Source: a virus. From it: a stretch of DNA of 46,508 nucleotides. The notes under the pieces were generated by a model. That model searched no databases. It saw only the letters and a program-made list of their open reading frames with translations, and had not been told where the DNA came from. Location of the stretch: positions 1-46,508 of the IMG/VR virus record IMGVR_UViG_3300031227_000088; one strand, given 5' to 3'. The translations under genes were made by a program, and so were the position numbers. Shown here in pieces: positions 1,044 to 46,508 of the stretch (the first letter of the stretch is position 1; every line of letters starts with the position of its first letter).

Positions 1044-1367
1044 ATGAAGAAGTATGTATGGTTAGTATTATTATTACCGTTGGTATTAGTTCTTTTTAAA
1101 GGTTGTACTGCGATGACACCTATAGAGAAAGCTGAAGGAGATGTATATTTCTATTATCAGGGTACAGATGCAAACTGTCAGGATATGGCTTTAACATTAT
1201 CAAGCAGATTACAGGCTGATAACATACCTCACTTTATATGTTTAGGCGATAGATTAGGTGAGAGACACATGTGGATAGAGGATTTAGATGGTAAGATATA
1301 CGACCCTTCATTCAGTAATACAGATGCCTCTAAGTATGTAATAGATAAACGTGAAAGAGTGCTATGA
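1044..1367 (+). CDS. Membrane-anchored transglutaminase-like cysteine protein
   Basis: The start is ATG 1044, seven bases after an AAGGAGG; upstream in-frame starts lie inside the fibre end. Residues 1-20 are a lysine-led hydrophobic segment ending in G-Cys21, which could be a poor lipobox or simply a membrane anchor. The rest (~85 aa) resembles the transglutaminase/BTLCP cysteine-peptidase core: Cys45 in ANCQDMALTL, His75 in RHMWIE and Asp87 in KIYDPSF give a Cys-His-Asp order and spacing typical of small family members. The stop overlaps the next ATG (ATGA at 1364). Its place between fibre and holin-like genes suggests envelope action, in lysis or entry, but the substrate is unknown. Catalytic assignment is by motif only. 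Confidence 0.55.
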   Translation: MKKYVWLVLLLPLVLVLFKGCTAMTPIEKAEGDVYFYYQGTDANCQDMALTLSSRLQADNIPHFICLGDRLGERHMWIEDLDGKIYDPSFSNTDASKYVIDKRERVL

Positions 1368-2245
1368 AATATGTCTTTGACTATGACAGCATCAAACAAT
1401 GGATAAAAGCTAAAGGAGATTCTCTTGGCAATGCTTTTACTAAAATCACAGACGGTGCTGAGTTCGCTTTAGTAACAACATCAAGCAACCTACAGGTATC
1501 TATATCAGAAGATACCGTAGGTGTAGCAACGAGTGCAAAGCAATTACCTGATGGTCACAGCGTAGTTCTCTCAGCAGGTGCTGTTACAGTAGGTAAAGTA
1601 TACGTCACCGATGGAGTAGATGATGTTGATGTTGTAGAAGCCACAGACGATAGTACCAATTTACATAGTTCAAATGGCATAGTAGCTAATTCTATAGCGA
1701 ACTTCCGTATAAGCAGTACGAAAATTAAACCTGCACGAATGGATGCGTCAACACACTCTATTCAAACATTATCTTATGAGCATCACGAAATACACGCAGG
1801 TTCATCTTATTTCCATAAAGAAGCGTATGATGTTGCAAAGAATGCAACTATAGACCATTTAATAGTAACACCAGCTTCAAGTGCTTTCGCACACATGGTA
1901 ATAAGTGTAGAGAACACAACCTCGTTAGTTGATGTATATCTTTATAAAGATACGATTACGACTGATGATGGGGCTGTAGATGATATTCATAACAGGAATC
2001 AAAATTATCCTGATGCTAACACAACAGAGATATATACAACACCAACAACATCTGCTGTAGGCACAATGCTATGGTCTGTAGCATTAGGTGCTGGCAAGAA
2101 TTTACCTGGTGGTAGTGTACGAGATAGTGAAGAACTTGTATTGGAACAAAACAACAAGTATCTATTAAGGATAACCGAACCCAATGTAGCACCAACAACG
2201 GTTAATATAGCATTTGATTTTTACGAGCATACGGACAAGGATTAA
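1364..2245 (+). CDS. Putative virion/tail beta-structured protein
   Basis: This 293-aa protein overlaps the stop of the preceding gene by four bases. It is rich in Thr, Ser, Val and Asp without hydrophobic helices. The middle contains LSYEHHEIHAGSSYF (about residue 138) followed by TIDHLIVTP, a pattern I associate with small beta-sandwich proteins near tail genes of environmental phages. The N-terminal ~90 residues look like a separate strand-rich domain. A role as a tail appendage or receptor-binding accessory is inferred from position after the fibre. No enzyme motif is visible. Confidence 0.5.
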   Translation: MKYVFDYDSIKQWIKAKGDSLGNAFTKITDGAEFALVTTSSNLQVSISEDTVGVATSAKQLPDGHSVVLSAGAVTVGKVYVTDGVDDVDVVEATDDSTNLHSSNGIVANSIANFRISSTKIKPARMDASTHSIQTLSYEHHEIHAGSSYFHKEAYDVAKNATIDHLIVTPASSAFAHMVISVENTTSLVDVYLYKDTITTDDGAVDDIHNRNQNYPDANTTEIYTTPTTSAVGTMLWSVALGAGKNLPGGSVRDSEELVLEQNNKYLLRITEPNVAPTTVNIAFDFYEHTDKD

Positions 2246-2247
2246 CC

Positions 2248-2496
2248 ATGACAGACACCAACAGCAGATTAGCGAGAGTTGAAACAAAAATAGATAGTTG
2301 GATAGATCACACAGAAATGTACCGAAAGAAGAAAGACGAATGCAACGAGCGTATCTTCCAAAAGTTAGACAAGCTTCAATGCGGAGAACATCACGCGAAT
2401 ATAAAACATCTGATGACATGGATGAGAATACTGGTACTGGTGATAATATGCGGTGGACTAGCAACGATTGCTTTACGGCTCCTTGTAACAAGTTAG
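2248..2496 (+). CDS. XhlA-like hemolysin/holin-associated membrane protein
   Basis: This 82-aa protein starts two bases after the previous stop. It begins with SRLARVETKID, a short amphipathic coiled-coil region, and ends with one strong transmembrane helix (residues ~59-80, MRILVLVIICGGLATIALRL). That layout, an N-terminal coil with an Arg-Val-Glu-Thr-Lys motif and a C-terminal membrane helix, matches the XhlA family that cooperates with holins in lysis cassettes. A holin-like gene follows closely. Assignment is by architecture, not alignment. Confidence 0.55.
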   Translation: MTDTNSRLARVETKIDSWIDHTEMYRKKKDECNERIFQKLDKLQCGEHHANIKHLMTWMRILVLVIICGGLATIALRLLVTS

Positions 2497-2525
2497 AGAG
2501 ACCAGATAACATACAAGGTGTAGAT

Positions 2526-2681
2526 ATGAATGATATAAAAGAGTATGCAAATGTACTAAGGAAATCAAACGATAGGTGGTTAATAGATGATACGGATGAT
2601 GATATTAAATCTCTTGGCACATATGAGTACATGGCTTTATCAGCAATACATTTCACCAACAATAAACACGACAGACGCTAA
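2526..2681 (+). CDS. Small protein of unknown function (51 aa)
   Basis: ATG 2526 has AAGGTG seven to twelve bases upstream. The frame is open further left, but that part overlaps the XhlA-like gene in another phase and reads as a shadow. The product (starts MNDIKEYANV, ends NNKHDRR) is charged, with an acidic DDTDDDIKS stretch, and has no membrane segment. It lies between two lysis-type membrane genes. Function not recognised. Confidence 0.4.
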   Translation: MNDIKEYANVLRKSNDRWLIDDTDDDIKSLGTYEYMALSAIHFTNNKHDRR

Positions 2682-2696
2682 CCAAAGGAGGCAGTG

Positions 2697-2885
2697 ATGG
2701 GAATAGTGCAATGGGCAACAGATAATTGGGTACTTATTCTGCAAATATATGCAGGGATAGTAACCATAGCATCAATCATTGTTAAGTTAACCCCTACAAC
2801 CAAGGATGACGCTATACTATCAAAGATTACAGGGTTCATTGGTAAATGGATTGCATTAAATAAGGGGACAAAAAAAAACCCTTAA
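2697..2885 (+). CDS. Holin-like membrane protein
   Basis: ATG 2697 sits about seven bases after AAGGAGG (2684-2690); GTG 2694 is too close to it. The 62-aa protein has one membrane helix at residues ~10-30 (WVLILQIYAGIVTIASIIV) followed by LTPTTKDDAILSK, the T-P-T-x-K-D-D motif frequent in small phage holins, and a basic tail ending GTKKNP. It probably forms the inner-membrane lesion in lysis, possibly with the XhlA-like product upstream. A dedicated endolysin is not evident beside it. Confidence 0.6.
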   Translation: MGIVQWATDNWVLILQIYAGIVTIASIIVKLTPTTKDDAILSKITGFIGKWIALNKGTKKNP

Positions 2886-2981
2886 ATCCAAGATTAACCT
2901 TTCAGGGACGCTTACTACTCATTTTCTTTAAACAGAAGTGGGCGGTAAGGTTCCTAGGAAGGTACCTAAGAAAGAAACTAA

Positions 2982-3080
2982 ATGAATACATTGTTAAGCA
3001 TACTGAGTAAATTAACATTCAAGGTTAAGAAGGTACGTACAAAGCTAACTTATTACATAGGCTTAAAGTTTAAATGGTAG
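2982..3080 (+). CDS. Basic micro-protein (32 aa), unknown
   Basis: A short ORF with ATG 2982 encodes a Lys/Thr/Leu-rich peptide (MNTLLSILSKLTFKVKKVRT...). It overlaps the next small ORF by seven bases, and the GAAAG upstream is only a weak ribosome-binding site. The packed arrangement supports translation, but the call is tentative. Confidence 0.3.
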   Translation: MNTLLSILSKLTFKVKKVRTKLTYYIGLKFKW

Positions 3081-3226
3081 TTTTAGGGCTGTACGGACTA
3101 ATGCAGAAACACAACATCACTCGCACACAACTGGTAGACATCTTGAGATTGAGGCGTGAGTTGAAGAAATATCGTTACGAAGCATTCAAACATGAATATC
3201 ATACTAAAGGTATTAAGCAATTTTAG
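3074..3226 (+). CDS. Small basic protein (50 aa), unknown
   Basis: ATG 3074 lies in the end of the 32-aa ORF and the frame closes at TAG 3224-3226. The product has a central helical basic stretch (DILRLRRELKKYRYEAFKHE) and no cysteines or membrane helix. Its position just before the tail adaptor suggests a late-operon accessory peptide. Function not recognised. Confidence 0.35.
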   Translation: MVVLGLYGLMQKHNITRTQLVDILRLRRELKKYRYEAFKHEYHTKGIKQF

Positions 3227-3242
3227 ATAGGAAGGTGAGGAA

Positions 3243-3332
3243 ATGATCTATAAGAACGATTCATCTAAAAGAGCCTCTTTATTGAACGCTAAGAACAAGG
3301 AAAAGCGTAAAGAGAAATTGGAGGTAGCATGA
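3243..3332 (+). CDS. Lysine-rich micro-protein (29 aa) upstream of adaptor
   Basis: ATG 3243 has a good AAGGTGAGG just upstream and the ORF ends TGA 3330-3332, overlapping the adaptor ATG at 3329 (ATGA). The strong site and coupling suggest it is translated and may help deliver ribosomes to the adaptor gene. The peptide is mostly Lys, Arg, Asn and Glu. Confidence 0.4.
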   Translation: MIYKNDSSKRASLLNAKNKEKRKEKLEVA

Positions 3333-4216
3333 GCACAATTTATACTGCGACAAGTCTAGTAGAGCGGATCAGCAAGATTATTTCGGGCGACTACATCACA
3401 GCAGCTATGGAAGCTCGTATCTGGTTATTCATGGTAGATATATTTAACCAAATAACTGATAGAGATTATAACTACCAAAAGGTAACAAGTTCAATGAGTG
3501 TAGGTTCTTCAGTACAAACGATTGATTTACCTGCTGACTTCCTGCGTCCCATAACAGTATATACCCTGAGTTCACCAGGTGGTTCAAGAATAGAAGTAGA
3601 TAGATTAAGTGATGGTCAATGGTCTTATAGAACATCTACATCTAACACAGCACAATATCCCTCCCAGTACAGGATATACGGCATAGATACCGACAATAAT
3701 AAACAATTAGAGATAACACCTATGTTTAGTTCTGCGGCGACCTTATACATAGATTACTATAAGATACCTGATGAACCTTATGAATATAAAGCTGGCACAG
3801 GTGTAGCGACTTTAGATTCTCCAAATGTAACAGGAACATCAACACAATGGTCTGATTTTGTATCAGCTAAAGATTACTTCAGAATAGACAGCGTAGGTAA
3901 ATGGTATGAGATTTCATCTATAACAACAGATTCAAACATGGTTGTATCAACATATTTAACCGCTACTAAAACAGATGTAGCATACACGATCTCAAACAGA
4001 ATCCCTTTAAGCAATCAAGGTATATTGGCTTTAGTATATGGAGTAGCATCACAGATGTTAAACATAAACGGTGAAAAAGAAATGGCTGCATCATATTGGC
4101 AGTTACACTTAGATGCTATGGCTAGATACAAAGGTTCAGAAGTAAAGACCACAGAAACAGCGTATAACGCATACTCAAGAACGTATTATAACCATCATGA
4201 CTATAGTGACTATTAG
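3329..4216 (+). CDS. Head-tail adaptor / tail tubular protein A-like
   Basis: This 295-aa protein resembles the gp4/gp11-type adaptors that bind the portal in short-tailed phages. An N-terminal helical region (LVERISKIISGDY, then AARIWLF...DIFNQITDRDYNYQK) is followed by a beta region with FLRPITVYTL and a late helical stretch (AASYWQLHLDAMARYKGS) typical of these proteins. The next genes carry nozzle-type sequences, giving the usual adaptor-nozzle order. AAATTGGAGG precedes the ATG. Function inferred from length, secondary pattern and context. Confidence 0.6.
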   Translation: MSTIYTATSLVERISKIISGDYITAAMEARIWLFMVDIFNQITDRDYNYQKVTSSMSVGSSVQTIDLPADFLRPITVYTLSSPGGSRIEVDRLSDGQWSYRTSTSNTAQYPSQYRIYGIDTDNNKQLEITPMFSSAATLYIDYYKIPDEPYEYKAGTGVATLDSPNVTGTSTQWSDFVSAKDYFRIDSVGKWYEISSITTDSNMVVSTYLTATKTDVAYTISNRIPLSNQGILALVYGVASQMLNINGEKEMAASYWQLHLDAMARYKGSEVKTTETAYNAYSRTYYNHHDYSDY

Positions 4217-4218
4217 AC

Positions 4219-5280
4219 ATGCAAAAGATATTCTTAAAAGCATTTAAAGGTTTAAGAACAAAGAATCCATTATCCCTTGAGGGTGATGAATCTCCTTTAT
4301 GTAATGATATACAGTTGACACCTAAAGGTGCGTTAGGTTCTCCAAACGGTTCTACGAAGTGGAATAATGATTCTTTAGGATATATAAACGGATTTTTTGA
4401 TTACCATCCAAAACGAGGTGGACAGTATATAGCTAGTTTCTATTCAGATAGTGGTGCAGGGTACGGTTTTCCGCCTGCGTTACCTTCTGGTACAGGTTCA
4501 GAAACACCTGATGGTAGCGGTGTATTTACAAGTGATACACCAAGTTCTCCAGCTGCACCTATAGTTAAAGTATATACAGCATATTTAACTACGACTAATG
4601 ATTATGTATGGGATAGGGCAGGGCTTAATCTTCAATATGGAAATTCAATGTCATCTGTTTTAGCTGATTTAGGTACTGTATATGTCATAACAGTTAAAGA
4701 CCAATTTGGTGCGACTGCAACAGGATATAATACAGTAAGTGCCGCTACGCGAATACGAGTTACTTATAATACTGGATATTGGAGTATTAATAATTACAGA
4801 GATGTAACCATTACAAATGGAGTTGGTTCAGCATTGCTTAGTTATTATGGTAGCGACTATATTAACGAAGATCCTCTTAGCACTCCAAATAATGATGTAT
4901 TACAAATGAATATACAAGATGTTGGTAGCACAATGACAGCGACTTTAAGTTCTTTGCCAACTTTATATGTTTATGGGGTTGTATCATTGCCTGCTTCAAG
5001 TCCTACAGCAAGTTGGTCTGGCGGTACAGCAGAGTTGAAGTATATGAATTTATCATCAAGCGTTCAAACTTGTACCGAAGCAGTACAAGCATCAACGACT
5101 ACATGGGGCAGAATTACAGGTGGCATACATTCTTACCAAGATAATTATTCAGATGTTTTATCAGCTGGCGTCGGAACACCACAAAAAGGACAATGTAATA
5201 ATTTAACAGAATATACAATTCGTGTTAGAGATATTAATGGAGCAACTACAACTCAAAATGTTACTGGACCAGCACCATAG
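4219..5280 (+). CDS. Nozzle N-terminal paralogue fused to Ig-like region
   Basis: The first ~75 residues (KIFLKAFKGL, SPLCND, GALGSPNGSTKW, GFFDYHPKRGGQYI) closely match the start of the next gene (5290), the beginning of tail-nozzle/stabilisation proteins. Instead of the nozzle body, this copy has a Gly/Ser/Pro-rich linker (residues ~77-112) and ~240 residues of strand-rich sequence with Ig-like flavour (VYVITVKDQFGATATGY; EYTIRVRDINGATT). It ends at TAG 5278-5280. It may be a duplication product that now serves as a tail decoration, or a remnant. No catalytic motif is seen. Confidence 0.5.
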   Translation: MQKIFLKAFKGLRTKNPLSLEGDESPLCNDIQLTPKGALGSPNGSTKWNNDSLGYINGFFDYHPKRGGQYIASFYSDSGAGYGFPPALPSGTGSETPDGSGVFTSDTPSSPAAPIVKVYTAYLTTTNDYVWDRAGLNLQYGNSMSSVLADLGTVYVITVKDQFGATATGYNTVSAATRIRVTYNTGYWSINNYRDVTITNGVGSALLSYYGSDYINEDPLSTPNNDVLQMNIQDVGSTMTATLSSLPTLYVYGVVSLPASSPTASWSGGTAELKYMNLSSSVQTCTEAVQASTTTWGRITGGIHSYQDNYSDVLSAGVGTPQKGQCNNLTEYTIRVRDINGATTTQNVTGPAP

Positions 5281-5289
5281 AGGAACATA

Positions 5290-5556
5290 ATGCCTAAACA
5301 AAAGATATTTATTAAGTCTTTTAACGGATTGCATTATGATATTGACCCTTTTGATATTGGAAATATTGACTCACCTCTTTTGAATGATTGTTATGCAGAC
5401 CCTGTAGATGGTTTGAGTTCACCTAATGGGTCAACTAAATTTGAGAATCTGGCAAAAGCAGATACGATATATGGACTTTTTGACTATACTTCACGTAGAG
5501 GACATTATATAATTATATCAATAGGAGATGGCAGTATAGAATCTACTGCTTTATAA
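5290..5556 (+). CDS. Tail nozzle protein, N-terminal piece (gene split by HNH insertion)
   Basis: These 88 residues (KIFIKSFNGL, SPLLND, LSSPNGSTKF, GLFDYTSRRGHYII) read as the N-terminus of a nozzle/stabilisation protein and then stop at TAA 5554-5556. The missing body appears to be the ORF from ~6305 to 8473, on the far side of an HNH gene that begins four bases after this stop. The last residues (GDGSIESTAL) probably come from the junction. Either two polypeptides assemble together or the protein is inactivated. AGAGGAAC before the ATG is a fair ribosome-binding site. Confidence 0.6.
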   Translation: MPKQKIFIKSFNGLHYDIDPFDIGNIDSPLLNDCYADPVDGLSSPNGSTKFENLAKADTIYGLFDYTSRRGHYIIISIGDGSIESTAL

Positions 5557-5559
5557 GAT

Positions 5560-6294
5560 ATGAATAAAAAAATATATAGATGTATAGAATGTGGAAAAGA
5601 ATTAGGATGTCATAAAGCTAAAAGATGCTTTACCTGTTCACATAAAAAACAAGGAGAAGATCAAAAAGGGGAGAACAATTCACGTTGGAATGGTGGGCTT
5701 CCAAATTGTAGTATATGTGGCAAGAAATTAGGGAGCTATAAAGCCTCATTGTGTAGGCAATGCTCTGGTAAGCAAAAAAGAGGAGTTAAGAGACCAGACT
5801 CCGTTAGAGAAAAAATGAGTAAAGCAAAGAGAACAGATAAGTACCCAGATAGTATAGACGGAAAGATACTTACTAGGAAAGAATATGATTTATTACGCAA
5901 TAATACCCCTAGGATGAAGCTGAGGGGAAGAATCAAACGATCACTTAGGTATAAATTAAAACAAAGAACTATGAATAAAAACGGATTACCTACATTTGAA
6001 ACACTATCGTTTACGGTGAATGAGTTAGAAAAACATTTAGAATCATTATTCACTAAAGGAATGAATTGGGATGTATTCTTTGAAGGTAAAATACATATAG
6101 ATCATATTGTGCCAGATTCATTTTTTGACTATGAAAGCATAGAAGATGATGGATTTAAGCAGTCTTGGGCTTTAAGTAATCTAAAACCTATGTGGGCTAA
6201 AGATAATTTATCAAAGAGTGATAGAATTGTTATATGCGGAGTATTAACAAATCAGCGAGCAAGAAATACTAAACAAATATTATTAGCAATATAA
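5560..6294 (+). CDS. HNH homing endonuclease inserted in nozzle gene
   Basis: This 244-aa protein has two N-terminal zinc knuckles (CIECGKELGCHKAKRCFTC and CSICGKKLGSYKASLCRQC), a basic linker, and a C-terminal HNH core: HIDHIVPDSFF, then W-ALSNLKPMWAKDN, about residues 177-220. It starts directly after the nozzle N-terminal piece and ends five bases before the nozzle body region, so it interrupts one gene. There is no room on either side for a group I intron core, so it looks like an intron-less homing endonuclease. Such insertions splitting a virion or enzyme gene are known in phages. Confidence 0.75.
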   Translation: MNKKIYRCIECGKELGCHKAKRCFTCSHKKQGEDQKGENNSRWNGGLPNCSICGKKLGSYKASLCRQCSGKQKRGVKRPDSVREKMSKAKRTDKYPDSIDGKILTRKEYDLLRNNTPRMKLRGRIKRSLRYKLKQRTMNKNGLPTFETLSFTVNELEKHLESLFTKGMNWDVFFEGKIHIDHIVPDSFFDYESIEDDGFKQSWALSNLKPMWAKDNLSKSDRIVICGVLTNQRARNTKQILLAI

Positions 6295-6304
6295 GGAGGT
6301 CGTT

Positions 6305-8473
6305 ATTTCTACAGTCATTAGCGGTTTACCATCAAGCGTTCGCCCCACATTTTGTGTAGTGCAGGGAACTCTATATATATTCCCAAGTTCAGATAAACGT
6401 ATTATATCTTATGATGGCGTAACACAAACAAATGCAGGGTTATTAGCACCTACTAATTCAGAACTTGTATTAACATCTACTGGGGCTGGAACAATAACGC
6501 TAACTACTGGTTGGAAATATAATTATGCTTGGTACAATTCCACAAAAGGGATAACTTCAGACCCTTATCCTCTTGCTGGAATAACTACAACAAGTGCGTT
6601 AGGCTCTATAACCTCTATATTGGTATCATCGTTTCCAGCTACATCCTCTGACTCACAGGTTACAGGAATAAGAATCTATCGCACTAATGACGGTGGTTCT
6701 ACATTCTATTATAATGGACAAATAGATTTAGGTGTAACCTCATACTTAGATACAGTAGTTGATGATAGTTTGGGAGATGAAGTCTCTACTAGGAATAATA
6801 CAATGCCAGCGTGTAAGTACGCAGTTTCCGCAAAAAGAAGAATATACGCAGCAGGGCAAGATGTTTATTCCGAAGGAACAGTAACCGTTTCAAGCGGTAG
6901 TATGACAGTCACAGGAACCTCTACTGTCTGGCAAGATGGTTTAAGAACACGATACTTTCAAGTAGATGATAGTTCAAGGTTATACCAAATAGATACAGTA
7001 ACCACAGGTACATCAGTACAACTAACTCAAGCGTATGGTGAAGCACAAGAGATTGGTGCATCATATTCAATGTATGGTGAAGATAATAGAGTGTTCTTCT
7101 CAGAGATAGACTCATCAGATACAGCTTTACCTGAGAGTTGCTACTTAGGATTGGATTATGGAGACTTTGTTGACTTACCGATAGACGGAGATAAAATCAC
7201 AGGTCTGGGTGTAGCAAGGGCATATACTATCCTTATCTTTAAAAACAAGAAGGTAGTAGCTCTTGCAGGTACTTCAAAAGCCGACTTCAATTTGTTCACA
7301 GTAAATGACAATGAAGGTTGTGTATCACATTGGACAATAGCGAATGACCATGATGGATTATGTTACTTCTTTTCTGGTAGTTCAGTTATACGAACAGATG
7401 GTTCTAACTTTGATGATATATCTAAGAATAAAATAGATAAGTATCTATATGAGTATATTGACCCTACATATAATGTTCTGTCTCATGCACAATACTATGA
7501 TAAGAGAAGATGGTATATGCTGTGGGTCACGACAAAGGGAAACACATCACCTAATATATGTTTAATATATGATCTAACATTAGGCGAATGGTATCAACAG
7601 GAGATTAACGCAGTATGTTCTGCAGTCGTATTAAATGAAACAACCAATGAGAATGAGATATGGATTGGAAGTTCAAGTGGAATTATTGAAAAATTAGATC
7701 AGGACGATACATTTAATAGGTCGGTCACAAGTGGGACTACAAGAGGTACGGTTACAACTGCTACAGCCACGACATTAGTTGACACAACTACTTCTTCATT
7801 CTTTACCTCAGCATCAGGGTTAAAGGGTTGTTATGTAACTCTAACAGGTGGCACAGGCGTAGGACAACGTAGGTTAATATCATCTTCTACAGGATCGCAA
7901 CTCACAGTATCTACAGACTGGGTTGTTACGCCTATAGGAACTGATACAACTTATGCTATAGGGGCGTTTGACGCATATTGGTATAGCCGCAAGATAGACT
8001 TAAATTCACCTGATTTTAAAAGGTTCTATGAGTTTCTAATTACATTCCTCAACCAAAAAGAATCCACAAAATTACGTGTGTCCTTTTTTGTAGATTTAGT
8101 TGACGATTCTGGGGTAGTGGCTGTAACAAACGGTTCTCCTACTGTTACTGGTACGGATACTTTATTTACTTCAGAAGATGAAGGTAAATCTATTCTAATT
8201 ACAGGATTCGCAGAGGAGTATATAATATCTAAAGTGACATCTCAAACATCTATTACCTTGAATAAAACTTATCAAGGAACAACTGGCACAGGTTTGAAAT
8301 ATATAATGGAAACATTCTTCACTAATATAGATTGTAATGTAGGGTATGATGCTCTCGTAGATATGAGTTGTAGGGCAAGATATTGCCAATTCAGAATTGG
8401 TATGAGAGATAGCGATCGTAAATTTTTAATCTATAATTTGGCTTATTGGGCAGACGGAGAGAGAATAGTATGA
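6305..8473 (+). CDS. Tail nozzle/stabilisation protein, body (C-terminal piece)
   Basis: The reading frame is open from 6287 and runs ~720 residues of beta-rich sequence with repeated propeller-like segments (LYIFPSSDKRIISYDG, VYSEGTVTV, ICLIYDLTLGEWYQQ, ETFFTNIDCNVGYDALV), as in T7 gp12/P22 gp10-type nozzle proteins. There is no ATG near the front. AAGGAGGT at 6293-6300 is ideally spaced for ATT 6305; the first classical start is GTG 6359 without a ribosome-binding site. I place the start at 6305 tentatively. It follows the HNH gene that separates it from its N-terminal 88 residues. It forms the tail tip for DNA ejection. Confidence 0.6.
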   Translation: MSTVISGLPSSVRPTFCVVQGTLYIFPSSDKRIISYDGVTQTNAGLLAPTNSELVLTSTGAGTITLTTGWKYNYAWYNSTKGITSDPYPLAGITTTSALGSITSILVSSFPATSSDSQVTGIRIYRTNDGGSTFYYNGQIDLGVTSYLDTVVDDSLGDEVSTRNNTMPACKYAVSAKRRIYAAGQDVYSEGTVTVSSGSMTVTGTSTVWQDGLRTRYFQVDDSSRLYQIDTVTTGTSVQLTQAYGEAQEIGASYSMYGEDNRVFFSEIDSSDTALPESCYLGLDYGDFVDLPIDGDKITGLGVARAYTILIFKNKKVVALAGTSKADFNLFTVNDNEGCVSHWTIANDHDGLCYFFSGSSVIRTDGSNFDDISKNKIDKYLYEYIDPTYNVLSHAQYYDKRRWYMLWVTTKGNTSPNICLIYDLTLGEWYQQEINAVCSAVVLNETTNENEIWIGSSSGIIEKLDQDDTFNRSVTSGTTRGTVTTATATTLVDTTTSSFFTSASGLKGCYVTLTGGTGVGQRRLISSSTGSQLTVSTDWVVTPIGTDTTYAIGAFDAYWYSRKIDLNSPDFKRFYEFLITFLNQKESTKLRVSFFVDLVDDSGVVAVTNGSPTVTGTDTLFTSEDEGKSILITGFAEEYIISKVTSQTSITLNKTYQGTTGTGLKYIMETFFTNIDCNVGYDALVDMSCRARYCQFRIGMRDSDRKFLIYNLAYWADGERIV

Positions 8474-8481
8474 TAGAATAA

Positions 8482-8549
8482 AGGCTTGGCGAGGGTTGCA
8501 AACCTTTAAAAGCTCGGAGTGCCTGTTTCATAACGGGCAAGTCAAGCCT
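8482..8549 (+). ncRNA. Compact three-way-junction RNA before HNH gene
   Basis: A 68-nt element folds by eye into a closing helix of nine pairs (8482-8490 with 8541-8549, one G-U), a small second arm (8491-8493 with 8513-8515, enclosing 8494-8497 with 8501-8504), and a third hairpin of seven pairs (8521-8527 with 8532-8538, loop TCAT). It begins eight bases after the nozzle stop and ends ahead of the HNH ribosome-binding site at 8559. It is not a tRNA, as no T-arm abuts the acceptor stem. It could be a regulatory leader, processing signal or part of the HNH mobile unit. Confidence 0.45.
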
Positions 8550-8569
8550 AAAACTAACAGGAGGGTAAA

Positions 8570-9103
8570 ATGGAAAAACGTGGTAATGCTTTTGTAGATA
8601 GAGCAGGAAAGAGATTCGGTATGTTAGCTGTACTAAAAACAGTTGGTAAGAATAAATCAAATGCGTATATTTGGGAATGCTTATGTGACTGTGGAAACCA
8701 TATAAATGTTAGTACAGGTAATTTGCAAAGTGGTAATACGAAAAGTTGTGGTTGCACAAGGCAAGAAAATTTATTGAAGGCTATCACAAAACATGGTCAT
8801 GCTATGAATAATAAAACATATACTACATGGCAATCAATAAAAGCCAGAACCACTAACCCTAAAATAAAATGTTTTAAATACTACGGTGGGCGTGGAATTA
8901 CAATGTGTGAAGATTGGAAAAGTTCTTTTGAGAATTTCTTACGAGACATGGGTGATAAACCAGAAGGATTGACCTTGGATAGAATAGATAATTACAAAGG
9001 TTACGAAAAGTCTAATTGTCGTTGGGCTACGTACAAGGAGCAAGCTAATAATAGAAGATGGAATCAAGACAGAGGTCTTGGTGCATTAAAGAAGGTCGCA
9101 TAA
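8570..9103 (+). CDS. HNH/AP2-type homing endonuclease (YGGRGI family)
   Basis: This 177-aa protein has an N-terminal GKRFGMLAVLK segment and a zinc-like CLCDCGNH...SCGC module (residues ~38-62), followed by YYGGRGITMCEDWKSSFENF, GLTLDRIDN-KGYEKSNCRWAT and a basic end. This pattern is common in phage HNH-like homing proteins. It is homologous along its length to the gene at 32481, and its N-terminus matches the fragment at 34545. AACAGGAGGG precedes the ATG. It shares one base with the next gene (TAATG). The unit of RNA element plus HNH gene looks inserted between two virion genes. Confidence 0.7.
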   Translation: MEKRGNAFVDRAGKRFGMLAVLKTVGKNKSNAYIWECLCDCGNHINVSTGNLQSGNTKSCGCTRQENLLKAITKHGHAMNNKTYTTWQSIKARTTNPKIKCFKYYGGRGITMCEDWKSSFENFLRDMGDKPEGLTLDRIDNYKGYEKSNCRWATYKEQANNRRWNQDRGLGALKKVA

Positions 9104-9468
9104 TGGCAATTCCACCAAAAAAATGGCAGAGATTTTCTGATAGTGTGCTTGATTCGCACTTAGAAGCCCTATTTAATTATCTGGGCAATATAAATACAAG
9201 CAGTAGTTCTGGCACAGGAGAGAATGGTAAGACATATACGAAAGAAACATACTTAGCAAGTGGCTTTATCACAAGAGAAGAAATATTTACTACAAGCAGT
9301 AGGACAACTAAATTGGGGCAGTTTGACTATGCTTACGACAGTTCAAATTATGTTACAAAAATTACAGAGAAAGTCTACAATTTAGGTAGACAAGTTGCAA
9401 CAAATACATATAGATATGCGTATCTTGGTGGCGGAAAACTTGATACAATTACTAAGAGTGTCGTTTAA
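9103..9468 (+). CDS. Putative virion protein (121 aa)
   Basis: ATG 9103 overlaps the HNH stop in TAATG; GGTCGCATA upstream gives a weak site. The N-terminus (PPKKWQRFSDSVLDSHLEAL) is helical and the rest is a Thr/Tyr-rich strand region (FDYAYDSSNYVTKITEK, NTYRYAYLGGGKLDTITKS). It lies between the nozzle and internal virion proteins and is probably a small tail or collar component. I know no family for it. Confidence 0.45.
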   Translation: MAIPPKKWQRFSDSVLDSHLEALFNYLGNINTSSSSGTGENGKTYTKETYLASGFITREEIFTTSSRTTKLGQFDYAYDSSNYVTKITEKVYNLGRQVATNTYRYAYLGGGKLDTITKSVV

Positions 9469-29317: not shown

Positions 29318-29472
29318 ATATAGATAAGATAAAGCAACAAGCAATACAAGAAATTAAAGAAGAAGATTTTTGGAAGGAGGTAAAGAAATACAAACAGAAG
29401 TTAAGAGAAAAGAAGTCTATATGGAGTAAAATATTCCCATATAAAATACTAATAATAAGAAAGGAAGGTTGA
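29314..29472 (+). CDS. Lysine-rich helical small protein (52 aa)
   Basis: ATG 29314 overlaps the previous stop (ATGA). The product is a charged helix (KQQAIQEIKEEDFWKEVKKY) with a hydrophobic/basic end (WSKIFPYKILIIRKEG). No known family. The end encodes the AAGGAAGG site of the next gene. Confidence 0.4.
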   Translation: MNIDKIKQQAIQEIKEEDFWKEVKKYKQKLREKKSIWSKIFPYKILIIRKEG

Positions 29473-37955: not shown

Positions 37956-38648
37956 TTATGTTGGTTTAATTAAGTCTACAAGATTACCTGTTTCGTGCAT
38001 TACCACAACTTTTTGTATTGGCACATTATATTTATCTGATATTTCCTTCATAGTCATACCGTATATTTTCCTAAACTTACTTCTATGAGGAGTGTCTTTG
38101 TGCATATCTCCATGACATTTACGACATAAGAGTATTAGGTTATCTAATTCGTGATTGATTTTAGTTCCATCTTTATGATGTGTATATATACCTTTATCGC
38201 ATCCACAAACTTCACACTTGCCTTGTGTTTGTTGTAACTTGATTAGTCTATTCTTTTTCATTTGATAGTGATTAGGGTAATCAGATGCTCCGTTTTTCCA
38301 TTTACTATTTCTCTCTCTTGAATGATTCCAATTCTTTGGAGCATTTAGTGGTATATTGTTTTTGATTCTTTCTTGATGAAACCCACAAAACTCACCTCTC
38401 TTAGATGTATTATTGCAATTCTCTAAAATACATTTATCGTATACACCATCTGGGTGTCCTGATCTTTTAAATTTAAGAAAGTGGTTTCTGCAAAAGTTAT
38501 TTCTATATATACTTTTATTGCAATCATCCATACTGCATATACCCTTCCAGAAAGCTGTTCCTTGTAATACAGCTTTAGAGTAGTGTTTTTTGCATAACCC
38601 TTTCGTACCGCTTTTCTCATTACACCCAACTATTTTACATTTTTTCAT
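37956..38648 (-). CDS. HNH endonuclease, the only minus-strand gene
   Basis: This 230-aa protein has a string of short Cys/His zinc modules (KKCKIVGCNEKSGTKGLCKK; CSMDDCNKSIYRNNFCRNH; CILENCNNTSKRGEFCGFH), then the HNH core (GKCEVCGCDKGIYTHHKDGT, LDNLILLCRKCHGDMHKD, ~residues 140-180) and a C-terminal helix-turn-helix (GMTMKEISDKYNVPIQKV). It lies tail-to-tail with the methyltransferase. It has its own promoter and a TAAGGAGG site (complement of 38653-38660). The opposite orientation marks it as a mobile insert between methyltransferase and portal. Confidence 0.75.
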   Translation of the reverse strand: MKKCKIVGCNEKSGTKGLCKKHYSKAVLQGTAFWKGICSMDDCNKSIYRNNFCRNHFLKFKRSGHPDGVYDKCILENCNNTSKRGEFCGFHQERIKNNIPLNAPKNWNHSRERNSKWKNGASDYPNHYQMKKNRLIKLQQTQGKCEVCGCDKGIYTHHKDGTKINHELDNLILLCRKCHGDMHKDTPHRSKFRKIYGMTMKEISDKYNVPIQKVVVMHETGNLVDLIKPT

Positions 38649-45381: not shown

Positions 45382-46508
45382 ATGAGACGTTCTTTAAAAG
45401 CATTATTATGTGCATTGGTATTTGGGGTTAGTGTTACAGGCACAGCAATGGCATGGAGTTCATTTGATGACCTTGCACTTGCTTTAAAGAACCTCAAATA
45501 TGATATTATACCTCAGAGTGCAAGTACATTAGATTTAGGTAGTTCAGCAAAACCTTTTGCTAATATGTATGTAGATACAGTTGTTGCAGGAAGTGTAACA
45601 TTTAGTGGAGATGTTGTTATAAGTAAAGCCATAGGACTATTAGACTTCTCTGGTGCAACATCAGGAACAATATCCTCTACAGGTAGTGGAACAGTATCTA
45701 TAGCAGACAGCGTAGATATTGTTGAGAGTAATATAACCTATGTGCCAGTAGCAGATAGTACAGCACTTCAAACTGCTTGCACAGCCGCTACAGCTAACGA
45801 CACTTTGATATTAGGCTCTGGTACTTATACGTTATCAACAAATGATTTGACACCTGGGAAAGCACTTACGATTAGAGGTCAAGGTGAAGATAGTACAAAG
45901 ATAACATTTACTACAGGACAATTCATCTATTCAGCCTCAGACATAAAACTTGAGAACCTTACCATAGATAACACGGCTAATACTGAAGCAACATATTACA
46001 TGGTAGATTGTGCTACAGACGCTCTTACAGGTCTTGACATGACGAATGTTAAATTAAACTTATCTCATGGTACAGGAACGGTGCAAGTGGCTTGTTTTAA
46101 TACTACATTTCCGATTGCTGGTGCATGGAATCATGTAAATGTAACCACAGTATCTACAAGTGCAGCGGCGTTTGGCGTACGGTCATACTATAATGGAACA
46201 TCTGGAACACTAACAATAAAGGATTCATCTTTTAGTGCTACATCAACCGCAGGGTCTAAAGAGGCTTCTGGTTTTTATCATAGACTTGCAGCTGGAACTG
46301 GAACACTTACTGTTGAAGCGACTAATACCTCATTTTTTGGTGATGGAACAGCTAATGTAGAAGCGGGATATAACTTAGCTACTGGCTCAGTATATGAAGT
46401 TCTGACAGCAACGAACTGTAAGTTTAATGGAAGTACAGTAGACGTACATGTTTCTGCTAATTCAGTAGCAACTCTATATGATTGCACCCTAGTCAACAAC
46501 ACAACCTA
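45382..46508 (+). CDS. Tail fibre, N-terminal part with signal peptide (continues at base 1)
   Basis: AGGGGGAGTAG precedes ATG 45382. The first ~24 residues (MRRSLKALLCALVFG, then VSVTGTAMA) form a textbook Sec signal peptide with an A-M-A cleavage site, unusual for a phage fibre. Next come SASTLDLGSSAKPFANMYVD and VDTVVAGSVTFSGDVV, motifs seen in phage fibre shafts, then a parallel beta-helix (CTAATANDTLILGSGTYTLS, ALTIRGQGEDSTKI, DIKLENLTIDNTA). The frame is open at 46508 and joins in phase to base 2, giving a LamG-ended protein of about 719 aa. Confidence 0.7.
   Translation, partial: MRRSLKALLCALVFGVSVTGTAMAWSSFDDLALALKNLKYDIIPQSASTLDLGSSAKPFANMYVDTVVAGSVTFSGDVVISKAIGLLDFSGATSGTISSTGSGTVSIADSVDIVESNITYVPVADSTALQTACTAATANDTLILGSGTYTLSTNDLTPGKALTIRGQGEDSTKITFTTGQFIYSASDIKLENLTIDNTANTEATYYMVDCATDALTGLDMTNVKLNLSHGTGTVQVACFNTTFPIAGAWNHVNVTTVSTSAAAFGVRSYYNGTSGTLTIKDSSFSATSTAGSKEASGFYHRLAAGTGTLTVEATNTSFFGDGTANVEAGYNLATGSVYEVLTATNCKFNGSTVDVHVSANSVATLYDCTLVNNTT

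Follow-up and report, generated by a model that had tools for sequence, protein, structure and literature searches.

The window (the whole stretch of DNA analysed, 46.5 kb) is a virus record with an SU10-type portal (Pfam PF23899, SU10_portal), an SU10-type adaptor and a block of short-tail genes. The nozzle locus adjoins the adaptor gene within this SU10-like module, which could be recognised by its Pfam matches to SU10_adaptor and SU10_portal. The features of the locus are collected in Table 1.

Table 1. Features at and around the nozzle locus of the window.
Feature	Position	Strand	Description
Head-tail adaptor (SU10-type)	3329..4216	+	Pfam PF24175 SU10_adaptor, E 2.8e-7, above cut-off; 5' of the nozzle block
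ig353	4219..5280	+	353 aa; second nozzle N-terminal domain of ~75 aa, followed by ~280 aa
N88	5290..5556	+	88 aa; predicted N-terminal nozzle chain (N-part of platform, first propeller strands); ends at TAA
HNH1	5560..6294	+	244 aa; HNH endonuclease
Shine-Dalgarno AAGGAGGT	6293..6300	+	overlaps the HNH1 stop codon; 4 nt before ATT 6305
nozC	6305..8473	+	C-terminal nozzle chain (remaining propeller, inserted domains and C-terminal portion); start at ATT predicted
Structured three-way RNA element	8482..8552	+	fold z-score -2.7
HNH2	8570..9103	+	HNH endonuclease, phrog_374 1.6e-61; free-standing, directly 3' of the nozzle gene

The product of nozC is the propeller of a podophage tail nozzle. It matches PHROG 3287 (2e-10 over 337 aa; several tail families match too), and is aligned by hhalign with nozzle ('stabilization') proteins of other podoviruses (97%). 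Scanning for the motif GD-x-ITGL[AG]V provided a broad set of viral nozzle proteins, from which an iterative nozzle profile was built. With this HMM nozC scores 1.8e-22, in agreement with the proposal of an earlier note on this DNA that the ORF from about position 6305 encodes the rest of a nozzle. The other ORFs of the window gave no meaningful score with the same HMM, and an intact nozzle gene, looked for in this way elsewhere in the window, was not found. The AlphaFold model of nozC is poor (pLDDT 50), its top Foldseek match still being the SU10 nozzle (3e-9). Because of this poor quality, only the model of an intact relative, L108 (pLDDT 79, pTM 0.84), was used for structure; it matches the nozzles of Pa223, VP1, GP4, P22 gp10, SU10, Sf6 and T7 gp12. 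As a separate observation, residues 188-266 of nozC share a domain with residues 153-228 of the adaptor (31% identity, 1e-5), which is also present at residues 603-667 of nozC. This inserted domain is akin to domains of many Pseudomonas phage tail fibre proteins.

The nozC frame contains no ATG, GTG or TTG before GTG 6359 and is open upstream only to 6287, with a TAG at 6284. The near-perfect ribosome site AAGGAGGT at the 3' end of HNH1 is one of four copies in the window and among the best ribosome sites found there; its AAGGAGG core lies 5 nt before ATT 6305 (4 nt when AAGGAGGT is counted). Nine of the 12 copies of AAGGAGG in the window are located 2-8 nt before an ATG, GTG or TTG. GTG 6359, the next ordinary start, lacks such a ribosome site, and starting there would remove part of the region of the propeller strands. 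The sequence context thus suggests that nozC probably starts at ATT 6305, by putative AUU initiation; ATT is a rare and usually weak start codon. The AAG GAG GT at the end of HNH1 can also be chance coding, and another copy of AAGGAGGT, at 29374, lies within an ORF, where it is read as K-E-V.

Upstream of HNH1, residues 7-81 of N88 score 14.3 bits with a nozzle N-terminal HMM that was built in this analysis from fetched loci, of which 31 non-redundant sequences of intact relatives were kept. The N-terminal part of ig353 scores 12.4 bits with this HMM, while 4000 shuffled sequences reached at most 7.3 bits and no unrelated ORF of the window scored higher. Hence the claim that the 88-aa ORF carries a nozzle N-terminus stands, albeit with a modest profile similarity (E 0.001-0.008). 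A first profile made from 7-13 distant sequences gave no signal with N88; since only the larger nozzle set recognised it, the assignment of N88 as a nozzle N-terminal domain is to be regarded as good but not overwhelming. N88 is 45% identical to the start of ig353 over 74 aa (E 6e-15), with a dN of 0.61 and a saturated dS of 3.2 between the two domains. Saturation at the third codon positions, together with a dN far lower than dS, indicates that the duplication is old and that both copies were constrained. No match to Pfam or PHROG was found for ig353, and its remainder of about 280 aa is, by eye, probably Ig-like. The homology of ig353 to the nozzle stops short of a hairpin strand (SIES) that is kept in N88. 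This second nozzle N-terminal domain, directly upstream of N88, was absent from the earlier note.

The three genes are closely packed, with three bases (GAT) between the N88 stop codon and the HNH1 ATG, and ten bases between the HNH1 stop codon and ATT 6305, so the earlier description of an HNH gene filling the gap between the two nozzle ORFs holds. The homology of N88 ends at position 82 of the profile, and the joined frame resumes about seven positions later. On the L108 model this gap corresponds to a loop of residues 89-93, with strand 85-88 before it and strand 94-98 after it, which places the break in the turn of the propeller's first beta-hairpin. As MAFFT misaligned the start of nozC with full-length relatives, these were trimmed at the loop before alignment. 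The distance between conserved anchors on both sides of the loop is 33-52 aa in relatives, and 39 aa in those of nearest architecture (L060, L091, L085 and L115). In the window it would be 35-37 aa if the TAL of N88 and the (VV)I of nozC are both kept. These lengths suggest that the hairpin turn is variable in length, and that little or nothing has been lost at the break. Whereas the nozzle is a single chain in 58 relatives, that of this virus is encoded in two frames parted by HNH1; the N-terminal platform part is present, but on a separate ORF (N88, and likewise ig353).

HNH1 carries zinc-ribbon motifs at its N-terminus, a repeat resembling NUMOD3 (GVKRPDSVREKMSKAK, by eye) and an HNH motif, IHIDHIVP...NLKPMWAKDN, that, also by eye, looks intact. 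Its profile matches are weak (phrog_28061, 6.5e-7; Pfam HNH_4, 0.014, below the cut-off). Relatives of HNH1 occur in 113 phage records (best 2e-23); in the three records examined they stand alone close to terminase or early genes, and none lies inside a nozzle gene. A third HNH gene of the window (37956-38648, minus strand) is located between a methyltransferase and the portal gene, and shows a weak likeness to IscB (NF040563, 3e-4). Between the nozzle end and HNH2 lies the stable three-way RNA element, with three of 200 shuffled sequences folding equally well; it has no match in Rfam or to tRNAs, and could be a leader controlling HNH2 translation. In L060, which has an intact nozzle gene, HNH/NUMOD3-type genes (4448-5065, 5752-6534 and 8582-9262) flank the adaptor and the nozzle. 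The nozzle locus of L060 looks like an endonuclease hot spot, and the presence of endonuclease genes on either side of the nozzle fits the "HEG islands" described in PMC10448857.

Several devices that could restore a continuous nozzle chain were considered. An intein is excluded by the TAA codon after N88 and by the different frame of nozC. A cryptic self-splicing intron holding HNH1, such that the nozzle would be made from spliced RNA, has a precedent in ICP1, whose tape measure and terminase genes are interrupted by endonuclease genes and are spliced (PMC10448857). In the window, a join at a TCTAC shared by both sides (5542/6308, 766 bp apart) would give an open frame, although the resulting hairpin of 30 aa is shorter than in every relative measured, and a 5-mer common to both sides is to be expected by chance. 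The two ends of HNH1 also share a TATAAG repeat (5552 and 6290), at which a join is not in frame. At most about 45 nt separate the end of the nozzle homology from the start of HNH1, with only the ten bases after HNH1 in addition, so that a group I or group II core would have to sit inside the HNH1 frame. Rfam searches found no intron in the window, and no intron family up to an E-value of 5 in the region 5200-6700; this catalytic-core search supports the earlier assertion that no self-splicing intron is involved. Furthermore, RNA folding at the two boundaries is ordinary (z -0.35 and -0.23), being no better than that of shuffled sequences, and nozC has a strong ribosome site of its own, a feature that would be superfluous in a spliced exon. 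We therefore consider splicing to be quite unlikely here.

In T4, bypassing in gene 60 is linked to the mobA insertion, which could suggest that ribosomes skip the insert in the window as well and make one chain. Known bypasses span about 50 nt, whereas here some 750 nt, including a translated gene, would have to be skipped; moreover, the boundaries are devoid of unusual RNA structure. For these reasons bypassing of this type is extremely improbable. The mobA insertion itself is described in PMC2988022.

It may also be asked whether the genome has a working nozzle at all, as the locus is known from a single metagenomic record for which no close relatives were found, and could represent a nozzle pseudogene or an assembly chimera. 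This seems quite unlikely, since the nozC frame stays open for 722 codons, with no frameshift, and has a correctly spaced ribosome site, while the GC content and third-position GC content of N88, HNH1 and nozC match those of the neighbouring genes. The ORF at the right end of the record (45382-46508) runs in frame into the left end (1-1033), giving 719 codons without a stop, with no terminal repeat left on the record. Such a frame running across the ends is what is seen in a complete circular contig, and the record is probably one. In this probably complete genome the profile search found no other nozzle gene.

All 58 nozzle ORFs with a recognisable N-terminus have the N-terminal domain and the propeller in one frame, and a separate N-terminal ORF was not found in any locus of this set; the number of independent one-chain cases is smaller than 58, because many belong to one clade. 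The earlier note had called for a search for the uninterrupted allele in relatives; distant relatives (about 16-21% identity) are uninterrupted, and no close relative was found. Pattern searches of viral contigs with nozC, capsid, terminase and both N-termini, and of genome contigs with nozC, gave no close relative, a pattern built on the motif that the N-termini share produced nothing beyond chance matches, and tblastn of nozC and portal against phages gave no match. In one record (L014, MW202785.1, 15766-17179) the annotated nozzle gene is shorter than it should be, since the open frame extends upstream and includes the N-terminal domain.

Outside this set, two podoviruses were found to have the nozzle on two ORFs without an HNH gene: MW202796.1 (35362-36276 and 36423-38042) and EBPR podovirus 1 (JF412294.1; gp30/gp29, 1075-3676). 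Neither record is annotated as having a split nozzle, nor did the earlier note mention them. In both, the first ORF comprises the N-terminus and an added domain (Gly-rich or other) and the next ORF comprises the propeller; in MW202796.1 a DUF6171-like zinc-finger ORF lies between the two. They resemble the window in having nozzle N-terminus and propeller on separate ORFs behind the adaptor region, but differ from it in a break that is located one hairpin further on, in the extra domain of the N-terminal chain and in the absence of an HNH gene. With an identity of about 30% the two are relatives and may represent one event; sequencing error may also lie behind them. They nevertheless hint that the border of platform and propeller tolerates a break.

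The N-terminal nozzle ORF of MW202796.1, and probably that of EBPR podovirus 1, lies directly behind the adaptor gene, which is the position of ig353 in the window. Together with the evidence that the nozzle domain of ig353 is real (its identity to N88 and its HMM score), this raises the question whether nozC takes its N-terminal domain from ig353, N88 being a redundant remnant beside HNH1. We consider this rather unlikely. N88 and nozC fit end to end whereas ig353 and nozC do not, since the homology of ig353 ends before the SIES strand; in addition, N88 is intact and scores slightly better than ig353, and N88, HNH1 and nozC are contiguous. The N-terminal domain of ig353 could also partner nozC. 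In a more speculative scenario, to which we give a low probability, the nozzle would be composite, the N-part of its platform being supplied by separate small chains, N88 and ig353 (with its decoration domain), that compete for or share docking sites on the adaptor, next to an AUU-started propeller chain with its ribosome site on the endonuclease gene.

The explanation that we favour, and consider fairly probable, is that a free-standing, homing-type HNH gene has split the nozzle gene and that the phage makes a two-chain nozzle. The endonuclease gene would have inserted at the hairpin-turn codons of an SU10-like podovirus nozzle, without an intron or intein. The message would then be read as three cistrons: N88 ending at TAA, HNH1 with its ATG probably reached by reinitiation (TAAgatATG, with a weak Shine-Dalgarno sequence), and nozC started at ATT 6305 from AAGGAGGT at the 3' end of HNH1. 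N88 would constitute the N-terminal half of the platform and the first propeller strands, and nozC the remaining propeller and the C-terminal half of the platform; the two would associate on the adaptor into a two-chain nozzle subunit, present in six copies per virion; the sandwich and blade sheets would hold the two chains together. Both ends of the SU10 nozzle chain contribute to the platform, which docks on the adaptor, and the chain passes into the propeller at blade 1 (PMC9509320); N88 and nozC would therefore share interfaces. By analogy with Aeh1 NrdA and phage 25 gp43, which function as two chains (PMC2988022), we infer that they can reassemble into a working nozzle. The earlier statement that the nozzle was split by the HNH gene stands insofar as two nozzle halves flank HNH1. 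As no uninterrupted allele of this virus or of a close relative was found, we only infer that the insertion caused the split, and the existence elsewhere of two-ORF nozzles without an HNH gene means that HNH1 could have entered a gene that was already split.

The closest known system is nrdA/mobE of phage Aeh1, described as an active two-chain enzyme (Friedrich 2007, as cited in PMC2988022). It shares with the window a free-standing HNH endonuclease gene in an essential gene, the absence of an intron, and two separate coding regions; it differs in being an enzyme with demonstrated two-chain function, whereas the window encodes a hexameric tail channel whose function as two chains is predicted. 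A homing endonuclease gene also adjoins a split phage gene in T4 gene 39/60 (mobA) and in phage 25 gene 43 (a seg gene); the latter likewise yields an active two-chain enzyme, and in that case it is undecided whether an older gap preceded the endonuclease (PMC2988022). These are replication proteins (topoisomerase and DNA polymerase, respectively), whereas the window concerns virion structure. ICP1 is similar to the window in having endonuclease genes in or beside interrupted virion-assembly genes, but its transcripts are spliced, as shown by RNA-seq and RT-PCR (PMC10448857), while in the window no intron is detectable. The nozzles of SU10 (gp17), P22 (gp10) and T7 (gp12) (PDB 7z4f, 8eap and 7boy) belong to the same fold family and occupy the same place in the tail, but consist of a single chain, in contrast to the two frames of the window.

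Literature searches brought up no relevant case of a homing endonuclease splitting a nozzle or another tail protein. Splitting of genes by homing endonucleases without an intron is of a known kind, with the nozzle as a new target in the literature searched; what sets this locus apart is this target, together with the ribosome site at the end of the endonuclease gene. To our knowledge, the intron-less splits by homing endonucleases known so far all concern enzymes. The nozzle forms a hexameric, pressure-bearing channel, which has to attach to the adaptor and allow the passage of DNA. If the two-chain nozzle works, selfish genes can break a structural gene of the virion without a splicing device, and the locus would show at which point the chain of a podophage tail protein can be broken. 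In that case, expression of the downstream half may also be maintained by a ribosome site that the endonuclease gene provides. Finally, the two-ORF nozzles of two other podoviruses suggest that the border between platform and propeller is a recurrent break point.
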